A stretch of DNA of 26,888 nt, from IMG/VR virus record IMGVR_UViG_3300000117_000082, positions 1-26,888 of that record, one strand, 5' to 3'. The notes beneath the pieces are model-generated. The model was not told the origin of the DNA and made no database searches. It saw nothing but the letters and a program-made list of their open reading frames with translations. The DNA is from a virus. Below are positions 2 to 10,607 of this stretch, one piece after another (the stretch's first letter is position 1; each line of letters begins with the position of its first letter). The position numbers and the translations under genes were made by a program.

Positions 2-622
2 GATGAATTTGAGTATAGTGATAAAAAAGAAGATTACTTTTTATTTGTAGGTAGAGTATACGATGGTAAAGGCGTAAACATTGCTATGCAAGTTACTGAA
101 GCACTAGGTGTTAAATTAAAAGTTGCTGGTCAATTATCTGGGCATTATGCAGAACCAGATTATCAATGGCCAGATCACGTAGAATTTGTAGGATATGCCG
201 GTTTAGAAAAAAGAGCTGAATTAATGAAAGGTGCAAAGGCATCATTCTTAGCGTCAATGTATGTTGAACCATTTGGAGGAGTACAGATTGAAAATTTACT
301 TTCTGGTACACCTATTATTACTACAGATTGGGGAGCATTTGCAGAATGTAACATTGAAGGTGTTACAGGATATAGGTGTAGAACTTTTGATGATTTTGTT
401 AAAGCTGCCAAAAAATGTTTGGATGGTGAAATTAAATATGAAGACTGCCGTGCACACGGTGAAACTTTTTCTTTAGAAGCAATTGCTCCTAAGTATGAAA
501 AATTCTTTACTGATGTAAGAAACATTTATCAAGGTAAAGGCTGGTATCATATTAGTGATCCTTCAATTTATACCGATAAGTGGTTAAAGGATCATGATTA
601 TGATTCATCAAAAAAAAACTAA
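2..622 (+). CDS. GT4-type glycosyltransferase (GT-B fold), 5' partial
   Basis: The frame is open from base 2, so the N-terminal (acceptor) domain lies outside the window. The visible part is the nucleotide-sugar-binding domain of a GT-B retaining glycosyltransferase. It starts with a FVGRVYDGKGVNIA segment (GT4 families have F-x-G-R-x-x-x-x-K-G here), then a KLKVAGQ strand, and EPFGGVQIE at bases 266-292, which is the E-x7-E sugar-nucleotide motif. LSGTPIITTDWGAFAE follows, another typical GT4 segment. The role is inferred to be transfer of a sugar to phage DNA, a virion protein or a host glycan; donor and acceptor cannot be read from the sequence. The last codons are AAA AAA AAC TAA, an in-phase slippery heptamer directly before the stop, so a fraction of product may continue into the next glycosyltransferase. 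Confidence 0.85.
   Translation, partial: DEFEYSDKKEDYFLFVGRVYDGKGVNIAMQVTEALGVKLKVAGQLSGHYAEPDYQWPDHVEFVGYAGLEKRAELMKGAKASFLASMYVEPFGGVQIENLLSGTPIITTDWGAFAECNIEGVTGYRCRTFDDFVKAAKKCLDGEIKYEDCRAHGETFSLEAIAPKYEKFFTDVRNIYQGKGWYHISDPSIYTDKWLKDHDYDSSKKN
613..619 (+). promoter_or_regulatory. Candidate -1 ribosomal frameshift site (A AAA AAC)
   Basis: Bases 610-618 are nine A followed by C. In the frame of the upstream gene the codons are AAA AAC TAA, so A_AAA_AAC is exactly in phase as an X_XXY_YYZ heptamer. A -1 slip puts the ribosome on CTA at 619, in the frame that stays open to 1530 and encodes a second glycosyltransferase. I see no convincing downstream hairpin. The only purine-rich upstream element (AAAGGA, 586-591) is about 22 nt away, further than the dnaX stimulator. 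The alternative is a homopolymer length error: one extra A would fuse the two genes. Confidence 0.5.
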
Positions 623-1530
623 AACCAAAGCTAGCAATCTGGACAGAAGCAGGCTGGTCATTAGGTAAAGTATATAAAGGTTTAAAAAAATCCTTAGATT
701 TTAAATATGATATCGATTTTTATGGTTGGAACGATCATGAAAAAAATACAGAGTTATGGACGAATGGCAAATGGAAAGAATATGATGCCATTATGGGTAA
801 TACTGCGTTAACCTTTTATCCTGAGGAATTAAATTATTTAGAAAAATTACCACAAGAAGCATTAAATAAAATGATTATAGGGATTTGGGCAAATCTCAAT
901 TTAGATAATGCTCATTTTGTTGAAAGAATAAAATATACAAAAGGCCCTTTATTTCACTGTGTAACTCCTGATATTCAAAAAAGTGCCAAAGATATGTATA
1001 ATATTGATGCAACACTAGTTAAAGCTGGTAAACCTACATCTGATTTTGCACCATTTAAGAAAGTTAATAAAATTAAAACATTAGGATTGAATGGTAATCC
1101 TAGTATAGGTGAAGCATGGTGCCAAATAAAAAGACCTGATATGTTTAAAGAAATTGCAGAAAAGGCAAATTGCAAACATACATTCATATTTAATTCTACC
1201 GAAAAAGATAATAAGATTTATAAAGACATAGATATGTATGTTTGTACTAGTACTTCTGAATCTGGCCCAGCTGGAATTATGGAATGTGCACTTAGTAAAA
1301 TACCTGTTATATCTACACAAACAGGCCATGCTAAAAACCTTAAATCTATAAAAACATTTACTACTGTAGATGAAGCTGTTAAAATTATAAATGAATTAAA
1401 TTCTTCTCCACAATTATTAAATGATTATATTGAAGAAGTTTACAATGAAGTTATTAAAGAATATGATTGGTCTACTGTTGCCCCTAAATATTGGATTCCT
1501 TTAATAGAAAAACTCTTAAACAAATCATAA
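619..1530 (+). CDS. Second GT-B glycosyltransferase, entered by -1 frameshift or an unusual start
   Basis: The first in-frame ATG is at 793, but the same frame already encodes recognisable glycosyltransferase N-terminus before it: KLAIWTEAGWSLGKVYKG and then DIDFYGWNDHEKN, resembling the first beta strand and helix of a GT-B protein. The frame opens at 604, after a TGA at 601-603. Between there and 793 there is no ATG, GTG or TTG; the only weak candidates are ATC/ATT codons such as 607. The C-terminal half has TLGLNGNPSIG and STSESGPAGIMECALSKIPV, the E-x7-E-like region of GT4 enzymes. The simplest reading is a protein made as the C-terminal part of a fusion through the slip at 613-619. Initiation at 793 would give a 245-residue protein lacking its first Rossmann strand. 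Substrate unknown. Confidence 0.75.
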   Translation, partial: LKPKLAIWTEAGWSLGKVYKGLKKSLDFKYDIDFYGWNDHEKNTELWTNGKWKEYDAIMGNTALTFYPEELNYLEKLPQEALNKMIIGIWANLNLDNAHFVERIKYTKGPLFHCVTPDIQKSAKDMYNIDATLVKAGKPTSDFAPFKKVNKIKTLGLNGNPSIGEAWCQIKRPDMFKEIAEKANCKHTFIFNSTEKDNKIYKDIDMYVCTSTSESGPAGIMECALSKIPVISTQTGHAKNLKSIKTFTTVDEAVKIINELNSSPQLLNDYIEEVYNEVIKEYDWSTVAPKYWIPLIEKLLNKS

Positions 1531-1561: not shown

Positions 1562-2770
1562 ATGGCAAAGGAATTCTCATTCTTAGATTTAAATAAAGAA
1601 ATGTCAAAGATCTCCGAGTACGGTGATACTTTAGATAAATCAACAATATCAGAAATAGATCATTATATACCTACTGGTAATTATCATCTTAATGCATGTT
1701 TAACAGGTTCTTTGTTTGGTGGTTATCCTAACAATAGAGCAGTTGCATTAGCAGGACCTTCAGGAACAGGTAAAACATATCTTATTCTTAACGCAATTAA
1801 ACAGGCACAAAGACAAGGTTATAGTATTATATTTTATGATTCAGAAAATGCAGTAGATAAAAAATTAGTTGAAAAGTTTGGAATAGATGCTTCAAAATTC
1901 AGATATGAACCATGTAATACTGTTCAGGAGTTTAGAAGTTCAGTAACTGCAATTACTGATGTATTAATTGAGCAAAAGAAAAAGGGAATTGAATTACCAA
2001 AAATAATGGTGGTTTTAGATTCTGCTGGTAACCTTGCAACGCAAAAAGAAATTGATGATGCAAAAACAGGAAGTAGTAAAGCTGATATGACAAGAGCTAA
2101 ATTACTTAAATCAACCTTTAGAATTATTATGACGCAGTTTGGTATTTGTAAAATTCCTTTCTTATTCTCAAATCATACTTACCAAACACAAGATCTTTTC
2201 TCAAGGCAAGTTGGTGGTGGAGGTACAGGACCAGAATATGCAGCATCTATAATTCTATTCTTAGGTAAAGCTAAACTAAAAGAAGGTGTAGAACAAACTG
2301 GAATTATTGTAACAGCAAAACCTAATAAAAATAGATTTGCCAAACCAACCAATATTAAATTCCATATTTCTTTTAATAAAGGTATGAATGCTTATGTAGG
2401 TTTAGAAGAATATATCAGCTGGGATATCTGTGGTATCGAAAGAGGTAGGTTTATTACTGAAGGTCAATTTAATAAATTAACTGATATAGGTAAAGCTGAA
2501 TGTAGAAAACATTCTTTTAAGAAAGATAAAAAAGATGTTACTGTTTATTTTCAACCGTCGGCAACTGCACGTAAGATTTGTGTTAAGCATTTAAATGATT
2601 CTGTTGATTTGAATAAATTATATACTCCAGAAGTTTTAACTGAAAATGTTCTTAAATTAATTGAGCCTATTGTAAATGCTAAGTTTACTTATGGTGATGA
2701 ATTAGATCAAGAAGAATTAGGAAATATAATTACAGAAACAACAGTTGAAGATGCTACCGAAAACTCTTAA
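1562..2770 (+). CDS. uvsX: UvsX RecA-like recombinase
   Basis: This is the phage strand-exchange recombinase that pairs single-stranded DNA with a homologous duplex in recombination-dependent replication and repair. The 402 residues are close to the 391 of T4 UvsX. The Walker A loop GPSGTGKT is at residues 65-72, a Walker B strand KIMVVLDSAG has its Asp at residue 153, and a DNA-binding loop-like region follows (RQVGGGGTGPEYAAS), as in UvsX/RecA proteins. The ATG follows an A-rich leader with no Shine-Dalgarno. It is the first gene of the block uvsX, small ORF, gp41, unknown, gp47, gp46, consistent with a replication/recombination operon. The next gene overlaps its 3' end by 20 bp. Confidence 0.95.
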   Translation: MAKEFSFLDLNKEMSKISEYGDTLDKSTISEIDHYIPTGNYHLNACLTGSLFGGYPNNRAVALAGPSGTGKTYLILNAIKQAQRQGYSIIFYDSENAVDKKLVEKFGIDASKFRYEPCNTVQEFRSSVTAITDVLIEQKKKGIELPKIMVVLDSAGNLATQKEIDDAKTGSSKADMTRAKLLKSTFRIIMTQFGICKIPFLFSNHTYQTQDLFSRQVGGGGTGPEYAASIILFLGKAKLKEGVEQTGIIVTAKPNKNRFAKPTNIKFHISFNKGMNAYVGLEEYISWDICGIERGRFITEGQFNKLTDIGKAECRKHSFKKDKKDVTVYFQPSATARKICVKHLNDSVDLNKLYTPEVLTENVLKLIEPIVNAKFTYGDELDQEELGNIITETTVEDATENS

Positions 2771-4392: not shown

Positions 4393-4887
4393 ATGTGGGG
4401 TAAAAAGAAAAAGAAACTTACAAAAGCAGAAGAAGATAAAAAATCAGGCTATCAAGAAAAGGATAAAATCTTTAATAATACATACGGAGAACAAGACTTA
4501 GGAGGCCAAAAGATAAACTTCACAGTATCAGCATCATGGTTAGATGGAATGGATCCAGATGATAAGATGCACTATGATGCGTTATTTGAAGTAGTAGATG
4601 CTTTAATTAAAGGTAGTGAATTTGAACATCTTAATGAAGCTACACCAGACGGTGTTATTAAAAAATTAAATAAAGTACAAATTAATAAGGTATTCTTTTA
4701 CATTATAGAAAATACAGGAACTTCATATACAAGAATAGATCTCTTTAGTGTTCTTTCTGATTATTTTGATGTATTTCCTAATAAGTTTTACAATTCACTA
4801 TCTAATAAATTTAAAGATGAATTAATAAACGAATTAGATGCAAAATACAATATTTTAGAAAAAAGAAAAATTAGAAAATTATTTTAA
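4393..4887 (+). CDS. Hypothetical protein between gp41 and gp47
   Basis: A 164-residue protein with a very basic N-terminus (GKKKKKLTKAEEDKK), then an acidic/neutral mostly helical body including NFTVSASWLDGMDPDDKMHY and a basic C-terminal tail (LEKRKIRKLF). No signal peptide, membrane segment or catalytic motif is visible. It ends one base before the gp47 start, so it is in the replication/recombination operon. I do not recognise the family; a nucleic-acid or replisome-associated accessory role would fit context and charge but is only inferred. Confidence 0.65.
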   Translation: MWGKKKKKLTKAEEDKKSGYQEKDKIFNNTYGEQDLGGQKINFTVSASWLDGMDPDDKMHYDALFEVVDALIKGSEFEHLNEATPDGVIKKLNKVQINKVFFYIIENTGTSYTRIDLFSVLSDYFDVFPNKFYNSLSNKFKDELINELDAKYNILEKRKIRKLF

Positions 4888-7668: not shown

Positions 7669-8670
7669 ATGTCAGCATATAATCAAGAGTTCAATAAAGA
7701 CAATACTATACTGCGTTATATTATAGTAGCTCTTTTAGCAGAACTAAAAGATAAAGTTTATTATTATAATCAAATAGATGAAGATACTTTAAAAAAGATA
7801 CCTATCCCTTTCTTTTATTCAATTACAGGAGACGGTAGATTTTTAATGGATAATTTTCTATGGGGTGCTGAAGAGGCAGGTAAGGCTATAGGTGACTATG
7901 AATCAGTTCCAAGAGGTATAATACAGTTAACAGGTATATCCATAGATTCAGGTAACCAAACAAATAAGTTTGCTAGAGGTGAGTTTGTACAGGAATGGGA
8001 AGGTATATTAAAAACTTTTTCAATGGAGACAAATTTTCTTCCACTCAATATGTCTTTTGATTGTACAGTAGTATGCTCATCTAATTTAGAAATGTTAAAG
8101 GTTACAGAATCTTTAATGAGTAAGATTTATAAAAATACTCTTTTCCAGGTTGATTTAGGTATGATGAGAGTTCAAGCTAGTTTTGCGGTTCCAGAAGATT
8201 ATCAACAAAATAGACTATTTGAATTTCAATTAAATGATAAAAAAGAATGGAGTGTAACTTTCCCTATAGAAGTTAGTTCATTTATGCCAGTATTTGAAAG
8301 TGGTATTTTAATACCTGAAGTAAGTCTTATGACAAAGGCTGCAATTAAAGCTAATCCTACTGCATCTGGTGTAGGTATGTTAAGATCTGGTCCAGATAAT
8401 GAATTAGGTATTTACTTTGGTGGGGTATTTCAAAAATTATTGGTTACGCAAGAAGATATTGCAAAACTACAACCTAGCGGAACATTTAGTAATAAAGGAT
8501 ATATTAATCCTGATACAGTACAAACCGGTGGACCGTATAGTGAAACAGAACTTAATACAACACCAGGGGTACCTGAACCACCAGAAAGTAGAAAATATAG
8601 AAATGCTGATGCTGAACCTAAAGTAGATGAATCAGGACTTGGAAGTGTTGATGATGGCTTTGGTGTATGA
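7669..8670 (+). CDS. Putative virion structural protein (unknown family)
   Basis: A 333-residue soluble protein with a helical N-terminus (RYIIVALLAELKDKVYYYNQ) and a beta-rich middle containing GIIQLTGISIDSGNQTNKF, FLPLNMSFDCTVVCSSNLE and WSVTFPIEVSSFMPVFE. The C-terminal tail is low-complexity, with Pro and acidic residues (TPGVPEPPESRKYR and then an Asp/Gly-rich end). No enzyme motif is seen. The beta-rich pattern and its place before other virion genes suggest a tail, neck or baseplate component, but I do not recognise the family. An upstream ATG at 7662 gives only a 6-codon reading frame, so 7669 is the start. Downstream is a late-type promoter motif for the next gene. Confidence 0.65.
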   Translation: MSAYNQEFNKDNTILRYIIVALLAELKDKVYYYNQIDEDTLKKIPIPFFYSITGDGRFLMDNFLWGAEEAGKAIGDYESVPRGIIQLTGISIDSGNQTNKFARGEFVQEWEGILKTFSMETNFLPLNMSFDCTVVCSSNLEMLKVTESLMSKIYKNTLFQVDLGMMRVQASFAVPEDYQQNRLFEFQLNDKKEWSVTFPIEVSSFMPVFESGILIPEVSLMTKAAIKANPTASGVGMLRSGPDNELGIYFGGVFQKLLVTQEDIAKLQPSGTFSNKGYINPDTVQTGGPYSETELNTTPGVPEPPESRKYRNADAEPKVDESGLGSVDDGFGV

Positions 8671-8694
8671 TAACAATTAACAAACAAGACATAG

Positions 8695-8704
8695 AATATA
8701 TAAA
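8695..8704 (+). promoter_or_regulatory. Late-type promoter motif AATATATAAA
   Basis: AATATATAAA ends 19 nt before the ATG at 8724. The same ten bases occur 19 nt before the portal and prohead-protease ATGs (12127-12136, 13819-13828), and at slightly shorter distance before the genes at 17685 and 24918. It resembles the T4 late promoter element TATAAATA, and a gp55-type sigma is encoded at 10705. Confidence 0.5.
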
Positions 8705-8723
8705 ACAAATCAAATAGTGTAAT

Positions 8724-10607
8724 ATGGAAAACACAGTTAACGAAGGACAAACACAAGTTTACACAGATGGGCATATTGATGCTCAACCTGGTGTAAATAC
8801 AAATGCCCTTTATCTTAATAATCCCAACTCACAATTAATGGATATAATCCATGTATTGTTTAACCAAAGTGGTAGAATGTCAGATGGTGACAAAGGTGAT
8901 AAAATTGAACATAGTGGATCTATGACCGATCAACAAGTAATGACAATCTTAGTAGGAATGGGAATTCCACAACAAATGGCAATGAGTGGTATTGCTAAGT
9001 ATCGTGAAATGCATAAAGATCAATCCGATATATACACTGAAAATAATAATCAAAAAAATCATAACAAAATGAAATTTACATTAACAGACCTGTACGAAAA
9101 CGTTATGGATAGCATTAATGGATTGAAGGCAATGGATAATGACAATTCCAGAGTTTCGTATTCTGTTAAAGAATCTTTAACTGTTTTGGAAGAAGCATTA
9201 ACTGCATTTCCAATGAAACTTAAAAATGCTGACTTATCTGCAATTAGTGAAGAACTAGAAAATTCAGTTAGTCCAGACCTTAAGTTTAAAATTGCAAGAA
9301 ACTTATATACTAAATTATCTCAATCAACTTGGTTAAATCCAATTTCTGAATTAAGAGAGTATATAATGGAATCATATAACAATTCTAAGTGGTACTTTAG
9401 AATTAGTGAATCTATTGAAAGAACTTCAAATCAAAAAGGAAAATTAATGGAATCATTAAATGCTGATTTAGTTTCTTTATTAAATGAATCAGATGTAAAA
9501 TCTAAATTTTCTGTAGTTGCTGCAAATCACCCATGGTCAATGGATGCTAAGGCAATTATAAATGAAATGAATGCTGAAGACCAAAAGGTTGCATCTACCG
9601 CAAATGGTAAAGTTGTATCTATTCTTTCTCCAGTGTTAGAATCTGAAGAAGGTTTAACATTCCACTTACATGGAAAGAATTATACTTATAACGGAACTGA
9701 TATTACTGAAGCTAATGTAACTGATCCAAGATTCTTTGATGTATCTGAAGGTTTAAATATGTTCTCAAGAAATGGAAACATTCTTTCATTACATGGAGAA
9801 AATGGAAAATCATTAGAATACAACATTACTGAAGGAACTTTAACAATGGGTAAAGTTGATATGACTAATTATAGTATCATTGAGTTAAAAGAAGCTTTAT
9901 TGGCAACTAACTTCTCAGGATATAGAAACCAATGGCAAAATGATAAAATTTGCAAATTCTTTGAATCTGTTGATTTAATCGCTGAAATGGATAATTTCAC
10001 AACAGTACAAAATCAAGAATTCTTAGATGTATTTTTAACAATGATTGGAGTAAGTGAAGGTATTTACATTAATAAAGTAAATCCTGGAATGAACTTAAAT
10101 GAAATGTCAAAAATTGATACTGCTACTGAAACTGTTGAAATAGTAAAAGAGTTTATTAATTTCGATGTTTCTCCAATTCTTTCTGAAAGATTAATTGCTG
10201 AAGATAATGAAAAGGCAATTGAAGAAAATAAAAGAAAAGATCTCACTGATTCTATTTCTTTCTTAGAAGAAAAGAAATCTGAAGTTGAAGCTGCTATTAA
10301 AAAGTTAGGTGAAACTGAAGAATTAACTGAAGCTTTAAATTTATTAGCTGAAGAGTTAAAAGGAAAAGAAAAAGAATTAGCTGATTCATATATTTCTGAA
10401 AAAAAAACTAAAGACGACTATTTAAATGATGGTTTTGTAGAAGCATCACTGAAAGTAAACAGTCAAGGTTTAAAAAAGAGACAAGAAGTATTAGTTTCTG
10501 CTGAAGAATACGCTTCCTTAGGAGATGACGATATGTTAAGTATAATTATTCCTAAAACTGGAAAAAGTGTAGTAATGCCTAAAGGCGATTTAGAGGTTAA
10601 GATCTAA
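8724..10607 (+). CDS. Large putative structural/head-associated protein
   Basis: A 627-residue protein of unknown family. Residues 1-115 form a separate Asn/Gln/Gly-rich region with SMTDQQVMTILVGMGIPQQ. Residue 116 is an in-frame Met (MKFTLTDLYENV) whose upstream bases (AATAATAATCAAAAAAATC) look like the leaders of other genes here, so a second, shorter product is possible. The middle is mixed helix/strand with a beta-rich stretch (GLTFHLHGKNYTYNG). Residues about 493-575 are a charged coiled coil (Glu/Lys-rich, LLAEELKGKEKELA), followed by a small C-terminal domain ending MPKGDLEVKI. The late-type promoter upstream and the terminator downstream suggest a monocistronic or end-of-operon late gene, hence a virion protein. 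Confidence 0.7.
   Translation: MENTVNEGQTQVYTDGHIDAQPGVNTNALYLNNPNSQLMDIIHVLFNQSGRMSDGDKGDKIEHSGSMTDQQVMTILVGMGIPQQMAMSGIAKYREMHKDQSDIYTENNNQKNHNKMKFTLTDLYENVMDSINGLKAMDNDNSRVSYSVKESLTVLEEALTAFPMKLKNADLSAISEELENSVSPDLKFKIARNLYTKLSQSTWLNPISELREYIMESYNNSKWYFRISESIERTSNQKGKLMESLNADLVSLLNESDVKSKFSVVAANHPWSMDAKAIINEMNAEDQKVASTANGKVVSILSPVLESEEGLTFHLHGKNYTYNGTDITEANVTDPRFFDVSEGLNMFSRNGNILSLHGENGKSLEYNITEGTLTMGKVDMTNYSIIELKEALLATNFSGYRNQWQNDKICKFFESVDLIAEMDNFTTVQNQEFLDVFLTMIGVSEGIYINKVNPGMNLNEMSKIDTATETVEIVKEFINFDVSPILSERLIAEDNEKAIEENKRKDLTDSISFLEEKKSEVEAAIKKLGETEELTEALNLLAEELKGKEKELADSYISEKKTKDDYLNDGFVEASLKVNSQGLKKRQEVLVSAEEYASLGDDDMLSIIIPKTGKSVVMPKGDLEVKI

Follow-up and report, generated by a model that had tools for sequence, protein, structure and literature searches.

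The junction between two adjacent glycosyltransferase genes of an uncultured T4-like phage, GT1 and GT2, very probably carries a programmed −1 transition, whichever mechanism brings it about; no RNA or protein data bear on it. The stretch analyzed here (the window; 26,888 nucleotides, Table 1) starts at base 1 of the 37,399-base IMG/VR record IMGVR_UViG_3300000117_000082, and GT1 is therefore cut at its N-terminus, with 206 of about 390 residues (the length of full-length GT1 relatives) in the window and the remainder off the contig. The 0-frame of GT1 ends TCA AAA AAA AAC TAA, such that a run of nine A's is followed by C619 and the stop codon, and an A_AAA_AAC heptamer lies in phase at 613–619. 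The −1 frame is open from 604 to 1530 and contains KKKLKPKLAIWTEAGWSLGK, with no ATG, GTG, or TTG between 604 and 793. When re-read from the sequence, the in-phase heptamer beside the GT1 stop and the open −1 frame with its first ATG, GTG, or TTG at 793 were both as the original prediction had described them.

Table 1. Features of the window that are discussed in the text.
Feature	Position	Strand	Basis
GT1, GT-B/GT4-type glycosyltransferase, C-terminal 206 aa	2–622	+	Pfam Glycos_transf_1, E 1.2e-17; phrog_3408, E 1.9e-75
Putative A9 slippage tract	610–618	+	A8–A10 at same place in 13/13 distinct junctions
GT1 0-frame stop TAA	620–622	+	Sequence
GT2, start-less glycosyltransferase, −1 frame	619–1530	+	AlphaFold2 GT-B model; PDB GT4 matches
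GT2 N-terminal stretch before first ATG, about 58 codons	619–792	+	Invariant residues, pN/pS, model
First ATG of −1 frame, within GT2 N-terminal domain	793–795	+	Sequence
uvsX-like recombinase, next gene after GT2	1562–2770	+	phrog_97, E 7e-58
627-aa protein, family unassigned, small C-terminal domain past tract	8724–10607	+	Weak SH3-like matches
Second conserved A9 tract, inside 627-aa gene	10399–10407	+	A9 40/41, A10 1/41 homologues, same phase

Scans of viral_contigs with GT1, GT2, and uvsX yielded 13 distinct junctions, that of the window included, from different metagenomes, with GT2 proteins 39–55% identical to the window's. All share one geometry, in which the A-run lies a few codons before the GT1 stop and GT2 follows in the −1 frame. 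The run is A9 in 11 of the 13, A8 in L009, and A10 in L016; its first A can occupy any of the three codon phases (0, 1, or 2), and the base behind it is C, G, or T. Only in the window and L009 does a C fill the third codon position; other junctions read AAA AAA AAA C.., GAA AAA AAA AGC, or GTA AAA AAA AAA TTA. The GT1 C-terminus surrounding the run is unconserved, yet the run length is kept. One additional A opens about 300 codons at every junction, and the loss of one A or the gain of two leads to a stop within 3–20 codons. Two criteria for a slippage site are met, namely a homopolymer of about 8–9 or more A's conserved at a frame junction across the 13 distinct junctions, and a one-base indel that opens a conserved downstream frame lacking its own start. 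No start codon common to the family was found ahead of the conserved GT2 N-terminus at these junctions, and no fused in-frame GT1-GT2 relative was present among viral_contigs. This comparison of fused with shifted forms had been proposed as a check on the original prediction, which held that a −1 shift is required for GT2 and would yield a GT1-GT2 fusion alongside free GT1; the 13 conserved junctions, together with purifying selection ahead of the ATG (see below), support that inference. No relative was found in genome_contigs, and among annotated phage records GT2 had only distant matches, in five archaeal rudivirus records. Huge phage LR756500, the nearest relative in the annotated collection as judged by uvsX and portal, has no GT pair beside uvsX. 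No paper on a glycosyltransferase frameshift in phages was found in the library searched.

Long A-runs in these loci are concentrated at the junction. In 117,566 bases of related GT1-GT2 loci, 11 of 11 runs of A9 or longer are located there, as are 17 of the 19 A9 runs in the uvsX-centred loci (685,107 bases, duplicates included), where no run of A10 or longer or of T9 or longer was found. At one sister-clade locus, L119, an A9 run is present near the GT1 end (1557–1565) and GT2 has a normal ATG; a −1 stop directly follows this run, such that an extra A yields no fusion.

The stretch of GT2 that precedes its first ATG spans about 58 codons. In the AlphaFold2 model its strands (residues 4–9, 31–36, and 57–61) and helices (14–26 and 40–48) form the start of the GT-B N-terminal Rossmann domain, and the stretch is predicted to complete the GT-B fold. 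It includes the invariant residues K2, A6, G12, W13, and G16. Its median pN/pS is 0.47, versus 0.49 downstream; synonymous changes approach saturation between distant relatives, but closely related pairs give the same picture. By these comparisons the stretch is under purifying selection and as constrained as the rest of the protein.

Synthesis of GT2 solely from the ATG at 793 or from a later start is scarcely tenable: although 793 is the first NTG of the window's GT2 frame, initiation there would drop about 58 residues, including all five invariant ones, and the first strands of the modeled Rossmann fold. No ATG equivalent to it is common to the relatives, and the −1 frame of L007 has no NTG between the start of the open frame at 4555 and about 4890. 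On these grounds a start at 793 was rejected. GT2 might instead be a separate protein that begins at a rare non-NUG codon near the GT1 stop by termination-reinitiation, as could be argued from the sister clade, where GT2 begins at an ATG overlapping the GT1 stop (L108, L110, L119, L151, and others), and from an in-frame GTG nearby in L005. We regard this as improbable, as the relatives have no common start codon (the equivalent codons are CTA, GTA, GTT, GTG, and ATA), and reinitiation explains neither the conserved A-run nor its absence from GT1-only homologues: of 52 distinct homologues of GT1 that lack this GT2, none has A8 or longer at the stop and one has A7. It is very unlikely that the junction reflects an error of sequencing or assembly, or that the gene pair has decayed. 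Homopolymers are generally error-prone and the window is one metagenome contig, but a run of nearly equal length recurs in the same geometry at 13 distinct junctions from independent metagenomes, a conservation on which sequencing error was rejected, and both frames remain open and constrained.

As to mechanism, we lean toward the A9 run at 610–618 being a programmed RNA-polymerase slippage site, a reading for which no transcript or peptide data are at hand. Most transcripts would keep nine A's and give free GT1, ending at the TAA at 620. On a fraction of transcripts RNA polymerase would realign on the run and add one A; of this, the geometry is observed and the slip is an inference. Normal translation of the lengthened transcripts would then join GT1 and GT2 into a protein of about 690 aa and, lacking its own start, GT2 would exist only as the C-terminal half of this fusion. 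The run would set the ratio of free GT1 to fusion, and the arrangement would likely serve to keep the one-enzyme and two-enzyme products in constant proportion for a two-step glycosylation.

We prefer polymerase slippage over a fixed A_AAA_AAC heptamer because the run length is kept while its phase and the next base vary, because no stimulator is common to the junctions, because a Shine-Dalgarno (SD)-like motif is found at the start of just 2 of the 21 window genes, and because the second A9 tract (see below) retains a ninth A, although a heptamer would work without it. The original prediction had allowed slippage by either the ribosome or the polymerase. Its −1 shift is supported, but the element that is kept is a run of about nine A's rather than the heptamer, and a heptamer-specific site was rejected on this basis. 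The leaders of the window genes are A/T-rich, which points to a host that initiates without depending on Shine-Dalgarno pairing, as in Bacteroidota. Bacterial RNA polymerase slips efficiently at nine A's or T's, and Thermus dnaX is a further precedent (PMC5009743), with precedent also for runs of more than seven A's (PMC3711429), and an A11 run before a stop in Citrobacter rodentium tssM slips at 20–25% (PMC4256274). Polymerase slippage at the junction is weakened by the finding that short poly(A) induces little slippage in E. coli RNA polymerase (PMC6260861), the host polymerase of this phage not having been identified, and by L009, which has only A8.

The same two products could also arise by −1 ribosomal frameshifting, in which tRNAs paired with A_AAA_AA[A/C] move back by one base, perhaps helped by a hairpin in part of the family; we hold this possible but doubtful. 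An in-phase A_AAA_AA[A/C] heptamer is indeed present at 13 of 13 junctions, though not always at the same place in the run. None of the 13 junctions uses A_AAA_AAG, the most effective ribosomal heptamer in E. coli, and a heptamer gives no reason for that avoidance or for the retention of nine A's. The criterion set for a frameshift stimulator, an SD-like element upstream or a structure 5–8 nt downstream, was not met: no SD-like element common to the junctions was found, the downstream RNA in the window is unstructured (z −0.57), and L004 alone has a modest structure about 8 nt past the run. Some frameshift sites work without a known stimulator, A_AAA_AAC itself doing so in an insertion-sequence cluster (PMC4066793), so the unmet criterion lowers the case for ribosomal slippage without excluding it. 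Nine relatives (L005, L009, L010, L011, L013, L016, L020, L041, and L090) have a very stable hairpin in the GT2 coding sequence, 38–60 nt after the run, with different pairing but similar encoded protein in L005 and L009; for 8 of the 9 members of one subclade, no other 80-nt segment of the locus is as stable, and the hairpin hints at a translational role. However, it starts 38 nt or more past the tract, compared with 5–8 nt for known stimulators (PMC4066793), is missing from the window, L002, and L007, and shows covariation not above that of shuffles, and it was rejected as a classical stimulator. No tRNA genes were found near the junction in the two loci scanned.

The second A9 tract of the window ends at 10407, the C at 10408 not being part of the run. 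The original prediction had used it as a control for run length. It does argue that such runs are correctly sequenced, but it is not neutral, as it is conserved in all 41 distinct sequences compared (L200–L260, down to 49% identity) with a −1 stop behind it. The tract always reads GAA AAA AAA A.., with the −1 stop falling within two codons in 41 of 41, and one additional A gives EKKN and a stop, truncating the protein at about residue 562. Across the alignment of this gene, A8 or longer occurs 41 times at the tract column and once elsewhere. The serine after the tract is encoded by AGY in 15 of 15 sequences, versus 24% AGY across the gene; the ninth A is therefore kept, although a ribosomal heptamer has no need of it. 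By itself the −1 stop carries less weight, since 15 of 604 columns show one in all 15 sequences tested. The 627-aa protein has no significant Pfam or PHROG match, and its model (pLDDT 66 and pTM 0.30 overall) is too weak to assign a fold to the whole; only the C-terminus (563–627), which is confident and has weak SH3-domain matches, is usable. In the model the A9 run sits in a low-confidence linker preceding this SH3-like domain. The tract is probably a truncating slip site that would remove the C-terminal domain, the slip itself being unmeasured. Taking both sites together, we propose only tentatively that a T4-like phage lineage reuses RNA-polymerase slippage at exactly nine A's, for a glycosyltransferase fusion in one gene pair and for removal of a C-terminal domain in another gene, at a rate possibly tuned by a phage-modified host polymerase.

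The 13 GT2s with an A-run form one clade (100/100), and the A-run state may therefore have arisen once, a further point against the slippage reading. The GT1s of L002 and L004 are placed in the other GT1 clade, as if the upstream half of the A-run cassette had been exchanged without loss of the cassette, or the state had arisen twice. In the sister loci L108, L110, L119, L137, L138, and L151, GT2 is about 30% identical and has an ordinary ATG overlapping the GT1 stop; of the pair, L117 has only GT1. The A-run form probably replaced an overlapping-cistron form like that of the sister clade. Three forms make up a natural comparison set: loci with GT1 but no GT2, loci whose cistrons overlap at an ATG, and loci with the A9 run and no GT2 start. 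In L016, uvsX is in two pieces (8107–8730 and 9992–10531) about 1.3 kb apart, interrupted near residue 208–214, likely by an intein, an intron, or a homing-endonuclease insertion.

Both enzymes meet the criterion for GT-B/GT4-type glycosyltransferases (two Rossmann domains and GT4-like profile matches). GT1 is above the Pfam cut-off, and GT2 scores 26.6 bits with PF00534, whose cut-off is 26.4. The GT2 model is a GT-B fold with a mean pLDDT of 88; Foldseek matched it to GT4 structures with query TM mostly 0.6–0.7, and its top 50 PDB matches are mostly GT4-type enzymes. The gene order at the loci is polymerase-like gene, GT1, GT2, uvsX, helicase. In L013 a C5-cytosine methylase (129–1391), an unassigned protein, a sliding-clamp-like gene, and a DNA-polymerase-like gene precede GT1, GT2, uvsX, and helicase, the sliding-clamp and polymerase calls having been made by eye without a search. 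Elsewhere in related records, dCMP-hydroxymethylase-like and ThyA-like genes are present in L216–L220. Proteins of the thymidylate-synthase family (PF00303) occur in 3 of 17 records, which are fragments, and not in the window's own. For the one that was searched (L219), the closest PDB entries are CMP/dCMP hydroxymethylases, with T4 dCMP hydroxymethylase at 1.6e-23 versus 1e-11 for thymidylate synthases. A search for a TET/JBP oxygenase gave no match, but its positive control matched nowhere either. The methylase and hydroxymethylase-like genes make DNA hypermodification in these phages possible. Because the GT pair adjoins DNA polymerase and uvsX, phage DNA is weakly favored as the glycosylation acceptor, a guess from gene order and from the hydroxymethylase-like genes of relatives; a cyanophage GT1 homologue is located among tail genes, and the acceptor is therefore not settled as DNA.

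Gene callers would give GT2 a false start, at 793 or similar, and would miss both the predicted fusion and the predicted truncation. If the second A9 behaves as its conservation suggests, homopolymer slippage would be a repeated device for obtaining two products per gene. Conserved phage recoding is best known from tail assembly chaperones, whose G/GT genes use a −1 frameshift to make the upstream protein alone and a fusion. The GT junction resembles them as a phage gene pair predicted to give an upstream protein and a −1 fusion, but here the inferred recoding would join two enzymes, what is conserved is the near-constant length of an A-run rather than a heptamer, and the pair does not lie among tail genes before the tape measure, as a tail chaperone would. 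T4 beta-glucosyltransferase also adjoins uvsX, and both systems thus have a glycosyltransferase beside uvsX in a replication gene cluster; however, the T4 enzyme is absent from the top 50 PDB matches of GT2, and DNA glycosylation by the GT pair has not been shown. C. rodentium tssM (PMC4256274) likewise has an A-run soon before a stop, where an added A restores the downstream frame and yields a short and a long product, but its long product is one ancestral protein, whereas the GT junction would join two glycosyltransferases in a phage, with an A9 conserved across the family and slippage unmeasured. In Thermus thermophilus dnaX (PMC5009743, PMC3711429) a nine-A run sets the ratio of two products, as would the run at the GT junction; the genes differ, and a dnaX-like truncation is predicted for the second site at 10399, whereas a slip at the GT junction would instead extend the protein.
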